A DNA stretch of 64,000 nucleotides from contig NZ_CP089466.1 of the NCBI RefSeq assembly GCF_021233415.1, forward strand, positions 1,612,001-1,676,000, written 5' to 3'. The DNA is from Halobacterium litoreum. Lineage in GTDB: Archaea > Halobacteriota > Halobacteria > Halobacteriales > Halobacteriaceae. The number at the start of each line of letters is the position of its first letter. Position 1 is the stretch's first letter. Below the pieces are notes generated by a model that searched no databases, was not told the DNA's origin, and was given only the letters and a program-made list of their open reading frames with translations. Positions 38,874 through 42,510 of this stretch are shown here, in pieces. The translations under genes and the position numbers were made by a program.

Positions 38874-39536
38874 GTGAGTGTCGCGGACACCCAGCAGTTC
38901 TACGGCCGGTGGGCGCGCGCCTATGACTGGCTCTGTCGGTTCCTCCCGGGACTCGGCGACCTGCGTCGGCGCGCCGTGGACGCGCTCGAATTGGAGCGCG
39001 GCGACACCGTCGTCGACCTCGGCTGTGGCACGGGCGCGAACCTCCCCCACCTCCGGGACGCCGTCGGCCCGGAGGGGACCGTCGTCGGCGTCGACCTGAC
39101 GCCGGGGATGCTCGCCGAGGCCGGGACGCGCGTCGAACGCGCCGGCTGGGAGAACGTCCACCTCGCGCTCGGAGACGCCGCGCGACCGCCCGTCGACGAC
39201 GCGGACGCGATTCTCGGCACGTTCGTCGTCGGGATGCTCGACGACCCCGCGGCGGGCGTTCGGGCGTGGCGCGAGAGCGTGCTACCGGGCGGCCGCATCG
39301 CTGTCCTCGAAGCCGGCAGGACGGACCGCGAGGCGGCGGGCGTGCTGAACCGGATTTTCGACAGACTGGTCGCGGCGGGCGCGCCCGGTGGCGGTGGCGG
39401 AGGTGAGCCGTCACGCACGCTCGACGAGCGCATCGACGCCGCCCGCGACGCGCTGGCCGAGAACGGCGGCCTGACTGTCGACGAGCGGCGCGTCGCCGGG
39501 TTCGTGCGCGTGTTCGCCGGTCACTCCCGCTCGTAG
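38874..39536 (+). CDS. SAM-dependent methyltransferase (UbiE/class I type)
   Basis: A 220-residue class I methyltransferase. Motif I is VVDLGCGTGANLPHL, followed by VVGVDLTPGMLAEAG (motif post I) and ILGTFVVGMLDDPAAGV. The N-terminus ADTQQFYGRWARAYDWL is typical of UbiE/Methyltransf_11 proteins. Start is GTG 38874. It lies between the small membrane protein and the convergent flavin oxidoreductase gene. Substrate unknown (lipid, quinone or small molecule). Confidence 0.85.
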   Translation: MSVADTQQFYGRWARAYDWLCRFLPGLGDLRRRAVDALELERGDTVVDLGCGTGANLPHLRDAVGPEGTVVGVDLTPGMLAEAGTRVERAGWENVHLALGDAARPPVDDADAILGTFVVGMLDDPAAGVRAWRESVLPGGRIAVLEAGRTDREAAGVLNRIFDRLVAAGAPGGGGGGEPSRTLDERIDAARDALAENGGLTVDERRVAGFVRVFAGHSRS

Positions 39537-40810
39537 GCGTCCTCGCGTTCGAGGCGACCGCGCTCCGCGAGCACCGACGGCGTGCGACAGACGCCGGGCG
39601 CGCCGGTCGCCTGGGGCACGGTGCAGTTGTTGCAGTTCTCGCAGACGGCAACGCTTCCGTGGTCGTCGAGCAGTCGCGCCGGGAGGCGGGGTTCGGCGTA
39701 GAACGGCCGCCCCATCCCGACGAGGTCGCAGGCGTCACCGAGCAGGCGGTCGATGCGCTCGCGCTCGCGGACGCCGCCCTCCAACAGTACGGGCACGTCG
39801 ACGCGCTCGCGGACTCGCCGGCAGAGGTCGGCGTTCCACGCCGGTTCGAAGGTCGCGCGGCGGGCCTGCACGCGGTTCGCGAGCGAGACGAGTTTCGCGC
39901 GCCACCGGCTCCCGAACGCGGCGGCGTACCCGGACTGGAACTGGCCGTCGCGCCACGCGCGCTCCGGGTACTCGCCGCGGACGATGTGCATGTCCCAGAA
40001 CACGCTCCCAGAGACGGGCACGACCGCGTCGAACCCCGCGTCGGCGGCGCGCTCGCAGAGGTCGACGCAGTCGTCGGCCGAGAGGTGGCGACGGATGCCG
40101 GGCGGCGCGCGCGTCTCGGCCGGAATCTTCGTAATCAACGGGAGGTCGGTGCGAGAGCGAATCTCGTCGTGGAGGAGTTCGAGGAACCGGAAGCCGTCCG
40201 CGAACTCGTCGTCGCGGCGGTTGTAGAACGGCGAGAGGAACTGCTGGACGACGCCCATGTTCGCGCCGGCGACGTGGAGGCCGTGGTAGCCGGCGTCGGC
40301 GAGGCGCTCGGCGGCGCGTCCGAAGTCCGCGGCGAGGTCGTACACCTCGTCGGTGGAGAGCACGCGGGGGGAGAGGTCGAGGAAGCCCGCACGGTCGGCG
40401 AGCCGCATCGGGAGCGGCGGCCGGGAGACGGCTAACTGTTCGACCCCCGGATGCTCCTCGCGGTACTCGGCGTGCCACACCTCCATCGAGCGCAGGCCGC
40501 CGTGTTCCAGTTGGGCGAACACGCGCCCGCCCCGCTCCTCGATTGCCGCCGGGACGGGCGCCAGCGCCTGCACGAAGGCGTCGTCGTGGACCCGGGTCAT
40601 GTTCGGCGCAGCACACCCGCCCTCGCCGCGCACGATGGTCGCGCCCTGACAGACGAGGCCGGCGCCCGACGCCGCCGCGGGTTCGAGGTCGCGGCGGAGC
40701 GCGTCCGCGGTGTCGGCGTCCGTCCCCGCACACTCCAAGAGGGGCGCGCGGTAGAGGCGGTTCCGGAGTTCGAGGCCGCCCACGTCCACGGGGTCGTCGA
40801 GGCGCGTCAC
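39521..40810 (-). CDS. NADH:flavin oxidoreductase, Old Yellow Enzyme family
   Basis: A 429-residue TIM-barrel flavoprotein. It starts VTRLDDPVDVGGLELRNRLYRAPLLECAG, a typical OYE/2,4-dienoyl-CoA-reductase start. VFAQLEHGGLRS and HGLHVAGANMGVVQQFLSPFYNRRDDEF match substrate and flavin motifs, and VLLEGGVRERERIDRLL the phosphate-binding loop. The C-terminal CENCNNCTVPQATGAPGVC has the cysteines that bind a 4Fe-4S cluster in dienoyl-CoA reductases, without the extra FAD/NAD domains. GTG 40810 is chosen; GTG 40822 is close. Likely an enoate or dienoyl reductase. Confidence 0.85.
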   Translation of the reverse strand: MTRLDDPVDVGGLELRNRLYRAPLLECAGTDADTADALRRDLEPAAASGAGLVCQGATIVRGEGGCAAPNMTRVHDDAFVQALAPVPAAIEERGGRVFAQLEHGGLRSMEVWHAEYREEHPGVEQLAVSRPPLPMRLADRAGFLDLSPRVLSTDEVYDLAADFGRAAERLADAGYHGLHVAGANMGVVQQFLSPFYNRRDDEFADGFRFLELLHDEIRSRTDLPLITKIPAETRAPPGIRRHLSADDCVDLCERAADAGFDAVVPVSGSVFWDMHIVRGEYPERAWRDGQFQSGYAAAFGSRWRAKLVSLANRVQARRATFEPAWNADLCRRVRERVDVPVLLEGGVRERERIDRLLGDACDLVGMGRPFYAEPRLPARLLDDHGSVAVCENCNNCTVPQATGAPGVCRTPSVLAERGRLEREDAYERE

Positions 40811-40927
40811 GACCCGAACCACGTCGCCGGGGTGCTTGAGCGTGGTGTCGGACCGAACACCGATGGACCCGCCGGACAGCAACCGCGCTCGCCGACCAAC
40901 CGGTACTTGACGGGAATTCGAAAGGGG

Positions 40928-41022
40928 CGGTGCGGTCGTGAGCCGAAATGGCACAAGCACCACGGCGAGTGAGGGAGTGAACGAGCGTGGAGCGCAGCGA
41001 GTCGCAGGCCACGACCGCACCG
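40928..41022. repeat. 95-nt element bounded by a 13-nt perfect inverted repeat
   Basis: CGGTGCGGTCGTG at 40928-40940 is the exact reverse complement of CACGACCGCACCG at 41010-41022. Between them are 69 nt, including a second short inverted pair CCACG (40960-40964) / CGTGG (40986-40990) and the purine-rich GAGTGAGGGAGTGAACGAGC. It has no coding frame of its own. It could be a small structured RNA, a miniature transposable element or an operator region. No target duplication is evident. Confidence 0.5.
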
Positions 41023-41107
41023 GGAATTTCGGGGAGAAATCGCATATCGAGTCTGCCGAGGAGTCCCCGACTGACGAACACCGACACGACACAAAAACTC
41101 GAAGCAC

Positions 41108-41113
41108 TTTAAG
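41108..41113 (+). promoter_or_regulatory. TATA-like element of the geranylgeranyl-reductase-like gene
   Basis: TTTAAG is centred about 27 nt before the ATG at 41137, consistent with a leaderless transcript and with the chosen start. Confidence 0.45.
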
Positions 41114-41136
41114 GAACGCGCGGTGACGGACGTACT

Positions 41137-42510
41137 ATGACTGACGTAGACGTGGCCATCGTGGGCGGCGGGCCGGCCGGGTCGGCCGCCGCTCGCGCGG
41201 CCGCCGAGCGAGGTGCGGACGCGGTCGTCTACGAGAAGGGCGTGCCGCGAGCGGACCGCGAACGACTCGGCCCGGACTCGACGGACGCCGCCGGGTTCCT
41301 CGACTACTGGCTGGACGTCGCGGACCTCGACTTCGCGGACATCCCCGAGGACGTGGTCGAACACGAACTCGACGACGCGGAGTTCATCGGCCCGAGCGAG
41401 TCGGTGGCGGTCGGTCGGACGGGCATCGACGCCGACTACGACCACTTCGGGTTCACGTTCCACCGCGCGAAGTTCGACGACTGGCTCCGCGACCGCGCCG
41501 AGGAGGCAGGGGCTCGCTACGAGGCCGGCACCTCGGTGAAGTCGGTCGATACCGACCTCTCTGACGGGCACGAGCACACCCTGACGCTCGGGGACGGCGA
41601 CGAGGTGACGGCCGAGTACCTGATTCTCGCGGACGGCCCGCAGCGACAGGTGACGATGCGCGTCCTCGACCCGCTCCTTCCGGACGGGAAGAAGGCCAGC
41701 GAACTGCTCTCGCCCCCGACCGCGAACCACATCGCGTACCAGGAGTACCGGCGGTTCCCCGAGGAACTGTTCGACGAGCGCTCGCTGAAGTTCTGGTGGG
41801 GGTGGATGCCGGGCGAGACGGCGTACCCGTGGGTGTTCCCGAACCGGAACAACGTCGCGCGCGTCGGTCTCACGATGCCCATCGGGATGGACGTCGACGA
41901 CTTCGACGCGTCGGAGTGGCGCCTGCTCCGCGAGGACGACGAGCAGATTCCCTCCGGGAAGGAGTACGTGCGACGCCTGCTGGAGGACCTCTACGGCGAC
42001 GAGTACGACGTCGAGGCGGACTTCCCGCTGGCGGAAGACCACGGGAAGTCGAAAGGCACGGAGACGTACCCGATTTCGTCGACGCGCCCCATCGAGTCAC
42101 CGACGGGCGCGGGCATCGCCGTCGCGGGCGGCGCGATGGGCACCACATCAGCGTTCCACGAGGGCGGCGACCACGTCGCCCACCGGACCGGCAAACTCGC
42201 CGGGAAACTCGCCGCCGAAGGCCGCCTCGGCGAGTACAACGACGCGTGGCACGACGCCATCGGCACGGAGATTCGCCGGAACGTCGCGATGGCCGACGTG
42301 GTCGGCGACTTCGACCCCGACCAGTGGGACAAGACCATTCGCGTCACGCGACAGATGCTCGAATCCAGCGACAGCGGGAAGATACTCTCGAAGTCGAACG
42401 CGCGGTCGGCGGCCGGCGGCCTGAAACTCTACTCCCAGTACAAGCGCGCGAAGTTCCGCTACCGGAAGGGGAAGTACGCCCAGATTCGGGAGTCGGAGTA
42501 CTCGTTCTGA
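41137..42510 (+). CDS. Geranylgeranyl-reductase family flavoprotein
   Basis: A 457-residue FAD-dependent oxidoreductase. The dinucleotide motif is VDVAIVGGGPAGSAAARAAAERGADAVVYEKG, followed by a FAD-binding DGPQRQVTMRVL segment and a GAGIAVAGGAMGTTSAFHEGGDHVAHRTG region. This pattern is that of archaeal geranylgeranyl reductases, which saturate isoprenoid chains of membrane lipids or menaquinone. The length and C-terminal basic helix (YKRAKFRYRKGKYAQ) suggest membrane contact. Whether it reduces lipids, quinone or carotenoid chains is not visible from sequence. Confidence 0.85.
   Translation: MTDVDVAIVGGGPAGSAAARAAAERGADAVVYEKGVPRADRERLGPDSTDAAGFLDYWLDVADLDFADIPEDVVEHELDDAEFIGPSESVAVGRTGIDADYDHFGFTFHRAKFDDWLRDRAEEAGARYEAGTSVKSVDTDLSDGHEHTLTLGDGDEVTAEYLILADGPQRQVTMRVLDPLLPDGKKASELLSPPTANHIAYQEYRRFPEELFDERSLKFWWGWMPGETAYPWVFPNRNNVARVGLTMPIGMDVDDFDASEWRLLREDDEQIPSGKEYVRRLLEDLYGDEYDVEADFPLAEDHGKSKGTETYPISSTRPIESPTGAGIAVAGGAMGTTSAFHEGGDHVAHRTGKLAGKLAAEGRLGEYNDAWHDAIGTEIRRNVAMADVVGDFDPDQWDKTIRVTRQMLESSDSGKILSKSNARSAAGGLKLYSQYKRAKFRYRKGKYAQIRESEYSF

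Follow-up and report, generated by a model that had tools for sequence, protein, structure and literature searches.

A dispersed haloarchaeal hairpin repeat, probably the arm of a non-autonomous mobile element with a conserved fold

The hairpin and its neighbours

The window (the whole 64-kb stretch of Halobacterium litoreum DNA analysed here) contains an irregular hairpin between two divergent ORFs, which are given for context only: an NADH:flavin oxidoreductase (PF00724) on the minus strand (39521-40813; the start is uncertain, probably near 40813) and a FAD-dependent oxidoreductase-like ORF on the plus strand (41137-42510). A TATA-like sequence outside the element, CTTTAAGG (41107-41114, plus strand), we take to be the likely core promoter of the downstream gene, so the hairpin lies upstream of that promoter.

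The hairpin is approximately 113 nt long, and we refer to it as the arm. Its outer stem consists of perfect 13-nt inverted repeats, CGGTGCGGTCGTG (40928-40940) and CACGACCGCACCG (41010-41022), which form a single helix and span 95 nt end to end; all 13 pairs covary across the family described below. An earlier note on this DNA had reported this inverted repeat and had given the element an extent of 95 nt. The repeat is where it was claimed and does span that length, but the structure reaches approximately 10 nt farther on each side. A basal helix (CGAAA, 40919-40923, paired with TTTCG, 41027-41031) lengthens the two paired sides to 40919-40940 and 41010-41031, with a complementarity of 82%. 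Between the two helices the alignment places a mismatched internal loop, in which GGGG (40924-40927; also GGGG in the family) faces GGAA (41023-41026; mostly GGGC in the family). The inner part of the arm (40941-41009) is an irregular hairpin with two conserved motifs, ACAAGCAC (40953-40960) and GAGCGCAGCGAG (40990-41001). What had been described as a purine-rich intervening stretch is this conserved inner hairpin of the family; in the window copy one of its helices is partly degraded. All of these features are given on the plus strand. The left end of the arm may resemble the ends of haloarchaeal CRISPR repeats, and a G-quadruplex may be possible.

RNA folding of 40910-41040 gives -55.1 kcal/mol for the plus strand (z -4.6) and -48.7 kcal/mol for the minus strand (z -4.2), and none of 200 dinucleotide shuffles matches the fold energy of either strand. 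Our covariance model (R1) matches the whole arm (40908-41037, plus strand) at 100.7 bits, while the runner-up within the window scores 15.7 bits. No tRNA was found within the window, and an Rfam covariance-model search of 40700-41300 gave no match up to E 1, on which ground we rejected a known RNA. The sequence GCCGACCAACCGGTA (40891-40905, plus strand) is, by eye, a remnant of the central palindrome that otherwise separates head-to-head arms, and the second arm is absent beside it. We infer that the window copy is what remains of the element after reduction to one arm, whose outer stem is still intact.

A dispersed family with a conserved fold

How widespread is the arm? With the window copy as query, blastn gives 7 matches in its own genome (the window copy counted) and matches in 18 of 40 relatives. 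The covariance model finds 42 copies in the window genome (E ≤ 0.01). Applied order-wide at E ≤ 1e-5, with no more than 12 candidates scored in each genome, it has matches in 222 of 293 sampled genomes, representing 70 of 87 genera. In a sample of the phylum, 44 of 294 genomes match, and every one of the 44 carries a label within the order (own genome, genus, family or order). A pattern scan was made of named genomes; among the matches listed, 79 of 80 titles are haloarchaeal and the other is “uncultured archaeon A07HN63.” These searches show that copies of the family are scattered across the order. Viral contigs gave no match to GACGCAAGCACN{12,42}GCGCAGCGAG, an exact pattern that divergent copies would escape, and plasmids gave none by blastn with the window copy. 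The covariance model matches one locus (L126; 57.8 bits) on a Natribaculum plasmid. At L126, a 970-nt stretch carrying a diverged arm is 99.9% identical to a contig of Natrinema hispanicum (L149); judged by sequence, this identity points to a recent transfer between genera.

The copies are not spread over the whole contig of the window genome. One arc (736,456-1,652,908), which makes up 34% of the 2.70-Mb contig, is free of copies, and the 31 loci lie elsewhere; a copy-free arc that large arises in 0.011% of random placements. The window copy (1,652,908) is the first beyond the arc. By eye, the copy distribution also looks uneven in one relative (G001).

Among the copies of relatives, the letters of the outer stem vary while complementarity is kept, and the inner motifs (GCAAGCAC, GCGCAGCGAG) and the mismatched purines are nearly constant. 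On a 24-copy alignment built from sequence only, RNAalifold predicts 34 pairs, 26 of which are changed on both sides. The percentage of cells that are paired is 96.0% in the real data, 78.6% in shuffled data and 30-52% when the partners are slid; the corresponding covariation values are 0.462, 0.138 and 0.044-0.099. Compensatory base changes, one criterion for a new structured RNA, are thus present. The earlier note had proposed that many copies would indicate a mobile element and that covariation would indicate RNA. Dispersed copies are found and the covariation is strong, so both tests come out positive.

Which strand is folded? On pairs predicted for both strands, G.U outnumbers A.C by 19 to 2. 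The ratio is 35:10 in the window genome and 85:21 in the named loci, counted on model-fitted alignments with the first pair omitted; these cells depend on one another, and a fitted alignment is biased toward its model. Among Halobacterium arms, the arm strand has the stabler fold in 97 of 127. The excess of G.U over A.C suggests that the fold of one strand (the arm strand, plus in the window) is the thing kept. Such an asymmetry is not expected of a double-stranded palindrome or cruciform but is expected of a single-strand fold, either RNA or DNA. Strand-biased mutation might also produce such an excess. Stem differences among close copies are balanced (C-T, 184; A-G, 172). At the unpaired positions in this comparison, which are 75% purine and 6% T, C-T differences occur at 0.099 per site and A-G differences at 0.036, which leaves some room for a strand mutation bias behind the G.U excess; we consider this source unlikely. 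At the level of sequence, these comparisons show compensatory change that preserves the arm-strand fold.

Composites, IS6 ends and turnover

In its complete form the element would consist of two head-to-head arms with a short palindrome between them, each arm comprising the irregular hairpin and a tail of approximately 35-45 nt. The window genome has 11 loci with two head-to-head arms, 18-110 nt apart and mostly around a CCGGYTGRYCARCCGG-type palindrome. No autonomous arm-bearing element was found. One wide pair (L128; 834-nt gap) was examined for a transposase between the arms, and this candidate was rejected; the gap holds only short ORFs that by eye are not transposase-like.

Some arms contain double-hairpin inserts. 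An insert of approximately 60 nt (GTTCGA-hairpin-TCGTGATGACGA-hairpin-TCGAAC type) lies inside the arms at L094, L017, L020, L031 and L173; its stems are variable yet complementary, and it is perhaps itself a small mobile element. A different double hairpin (GGGACTGA-hairpin-GGGTCGGAAGACGAGC...GTCTTCC-GGGACTGA) is found in the left flanks of L010, L025, L029, L033, L077 and L082, exactly at the left arm boundary and apparently with a short duplication. In the left flanks of L080, L093, L095 and L066, degenerate direct repeats of approximately 25 nt, ACAGCCGACAGC-like by eye, precede single arms.

Halonotius roseus carries numerous composites of approximately 335 nt, long stretches of which reach 94% identity; their ends are GGTACTGTTCAG... 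and TCGTGTTCAGATAAG.... The same genome has one PF13610 (IS6/IS240) ORF (213 amino acids, locus L276) flanked by perfect 13-bp GTGTTCAGATAAG repeats, and this 13-bp sequence is common to the bounds of the ORF and the ends of the composites. In the 16 Halonotius composites with both ends found, the flanking 8-mers match at 7 or more of 8 positions in 8 cases and perfectly in 4, compared with 1.3% of random pairings reaching at least 7 of 8 (small offsets are allowed in both sets). In this species the composite has IS6 terminal repeats and duplications of approximately 8 bp, so that in part of the order it is an IS6-type MITE. With these ends and duplications, and with its dispersed copies, the family bears out the earlier suggestion of a miniature transposable element. 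The IS6 family is characterized by 8-bp repeats, a GG tip and cTGTt motifs and includes haloarchaeal clades, according to the accessible part of its description (PMC7986276).

How far does this link extend? Among 31 IS6 loci, 22 gave inverted ends (4 of the GTGTTCAGATAAG type, 16 of the CTGTCTAGT type and 2 other), and exact 8-bp duplications were seen at 3. PF13610 occurs across the order, with matches in 72 of 117 genomes. Among the 98 named copies, 28 have an IS6-like end (at least 12 of 17) behind the arm, whereas the controls give 1, 1, 0 and 0. Two MAGs account for 14 of these 28, and the lineages represented are Halonotius, Halapricum, Natronococcus and uncultured ones. We propose that IS6-family transposases would have spread the composite. 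Approximately 70 of the 98 named tails are without an IS6 end, and other transposases may serve elsewhere. Relative to shuffled tails, the second IS6 end type (AACTAGACAGTGCC) shows no clear excess and CTAG shows none. The window genome itself has no PF13610 match, and an IS6-like end is found in 1 of its 42 copies (not the window copy), the same as in the reversed control (1 of 42). The IS6 link is thus made by the family, not by the window copy. Of the paired cells in the window genome copies, 1301 of 1368 are intact; the persistence of the fold in a genome without a detected IS6 transposase or an excess of IS6 ends over background suggests that it is kept for a purpose beyond IS6 mobility.

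We compared element loci among Halobacterium genomes. Four relatives contain 96 arms, 85 of which were taken with their flanks, in 60 loci; 33 two-sided orthologous locus pairs were found. In the relative G010, 8 of 11 loci compared match an element-bearing locus of G001, with flanks 80-95% identical, and at 13 of the 31 window-genome loci one or more relatives carry an orthologous element. Arms at orthologous positions mostly differ in sequence: their median identity is 0.685 (44 comparisons), and the mean over all arm pairs is 0.655. In the close pair G001-G010, identities run from 0.66 to 0.89 with a median of 0.75 (11 comparisons). In 38 of the 44 comparisons each arm is nearer to a paralog within its genome than to its ortholog, the closest paralog being a maximum over many arms, and the ortholog is closest for both in 2. 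Stems at one orthologous position have different letters, each complementary. Near-identical arms (92-93% over approximately 120 nt) occur at separate loci of the window genome with different flanks. These observations suggest that arm sequences are exchanged between loci. The route is probably gene conversion, a process reported to work efficiently between the chromosome copies of Haloferax (PMC11276520). Less likely, the same sites were hit by insertion more than once. In Halobacterium, copies would now be largely fixed in place, with letters traded between loci.

Functional readings and known repeats

We think that the hairpin is the arm of a non-autonomous haloarchaeal mobile element family whose fold is kept as a folded single strand (probability approximately 0.68). 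The arm would be retained as a working single strand, read by a host factor that binds through the conserved unpaired purines, and this strand seems slightly more likely to be RNA than single-stranded DNA. It is tempting, if still tentative, to go further and see a “shape-only” haloarchaeal repeat: a mobile-element hairpin at fixed positions, whose single-strand fold (RNA or single-stranded DNA) is read by a conserved haloarchaeal protein while its stem letters are continually swapped among some forty loci.

The main rival is that the arms are plain MITE debris kept by turnover alone. They would then be the long inverted ends of IS6-type MITEs, without host function, and the apparent conservation of the fold would come from variant-rich active sources and gene conversion running ahead of decay. 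The IS6 ends and duplications in Halonotius fit this reading, as do the exchange of arms at fixed positions and a placement that looks neutral, with all gene arrangements represented. Over loci with genes called on both sides, we counted 53 tandem, 27 divergent and 6 convergent arrangements in Halobacterium and 31, 23 and 6 in the named loci. We nevertheless hold the debris reading to be unlikely: hairpins keep 95% of their pairing in the window genome, where neither an IS6 transposase nor IS6 ends above background were detected, and the conserved mismatched loops and the G.U excess call for selection on the fold. To our knowledge, IS6 transposition does not depend on a fold.

Could the arm be a multi-copy structured non-coding RNA gene, which would act in trans as RNA? 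Its covariation, the G.U excess with purine-rich unpaired positions, and the stabler arm strand in Halobacterium would all suit such a gene. We doubt this reading, given that no Rfam match was found, that upstream of the arms TATA-like sites are practically absent (per copy, 0.00 in Halobacterium and 0.01 in the named loci) and that the sense orientation is weak; the sites and the orientation leave an RNA function tentative. In Halobacterium, 35 of 51 single arms point toward a gene that runs in the same direction, as do 32 of 46 in the named loci. At tandem loci the sense orientation is seen for 21 of 34 arms in Halobacterium and for 18 of 26 in the named loci (combined 39 of 60, p-value 0.014 if independent, which orthologs are not). 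A dedicated arm promoter and sense orientation as proof of RNA were both rejected on these counts.

A single-stranded DNA hairpin handled by an HUH enzyme, in the REP/RAYT or IS200/IS605 manner, is improbable. The irregular strand-specific hairpins in inverted pairs do resemble REP/BIME architecture, but the composites of Halonotius have 8-bp duplications and IS6 ends; moreover, the window genome has no Y1 transposase (PF01797), which led us to reject an HUH/REP origin, and its sole TnpB lies 42 kb from the nearest copy, which led us to reject a TnpB/omega-RNA origin. The earlier proposal of a regulatory element for the two flavoprotein genes can be given very little credence: although the arm has a divergently oriented gene on either side and a TATA-like site downstream of it, the 42 copies lie beside differing genes in all arrangements, and none of the 60 element loci from the four relatives is orthologous to the window site.

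If the preferred reading of a mobile-element arm with a kept fold is true, most sampled haloarchaea bear an apparently undescribed family of structured repeats, with tens of copies in some genomes, which sequence annotation misses because the letters drift while the shape stays. The family would offer a case for how a transposon-borne fold turns into a kept chromosomal feature, and for which factor recognises it. The question of a single-strand reader can be put to the test, given the strand asymmetry and the conserved purine loops.

We found no description of the arm family in Rfam or in searches of the full-text literature, the nearest candidates being compared by description only, from the accessible portions of the sources cited. 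IS6-family MITEs, of which two are described (227 and 336 bp; PMC7986276), have IS6-type terminal repeats and no transposase gene, as do the Halonotius composites with their 8-bp duplications and length of approximately 335 nt; by its description, the 336-bp MITE could belong to the arm family. Unlike these MITEs, the arm family has long, covarying, strand-specific hairpin arms with conserved loops and is still present where IS6 ends and transposase have disappeared. MITEHsal2, from the same genus as the window copy (Halobacterium salinarum), is 411-413 bp long with 6- or 8-bp duplications (PMC10264941), and 19 archaeal “MITE-like” repeats are described without a partner (PMC3852290). REPs (20-40 bp) are tied to Y1 transposases (PMC2817692, PMC3116915). 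REP, BIME and REPIN sequences share with the arm family an intergenic location, inverted pairs and mosaic arms, whereas the arm unit is much longer and the window genome is without PF01797; in the accessible text of a REP survey covering archaea as well, the string “halo” does not appear (PMC12306157).

PATEs and IS605-type elements are transposase-free, palindromic and haloarchaeal, like the arm family, and are described as having neither terminal inverted repeats nor duplications (PMC3119063). The Halonotius composites, in contrast, have both, and the window genome has no TnpA (Y1) and no nearby TnpB. The SMR-A repeats of Haloquadratum (HqIRS42/43/55) are approximately 110 bp long, with inverted ends and many copies near palindromes; the same source describes them as more than 95% alike within a type and without duplications (PMC3119063). 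As described, they resemble the arm family in size, inverted ends, copy number and association with palindromes. Insertion into PATE/IS605 palindromes without duplication would mark an SMR-A repeat; arms do flank a palindrome, but duplications occur at the Halonotius composites. Any of these (SMR-A, PATEs, the two IS6 MITEs, the “MITE-like” repeats, MITEHsal2) could contain members of the family. The arm family may also bear on the movement of the Haloquadratum SMRs, whose mobilisation their authors call “enigmatic” (PMC3119063).
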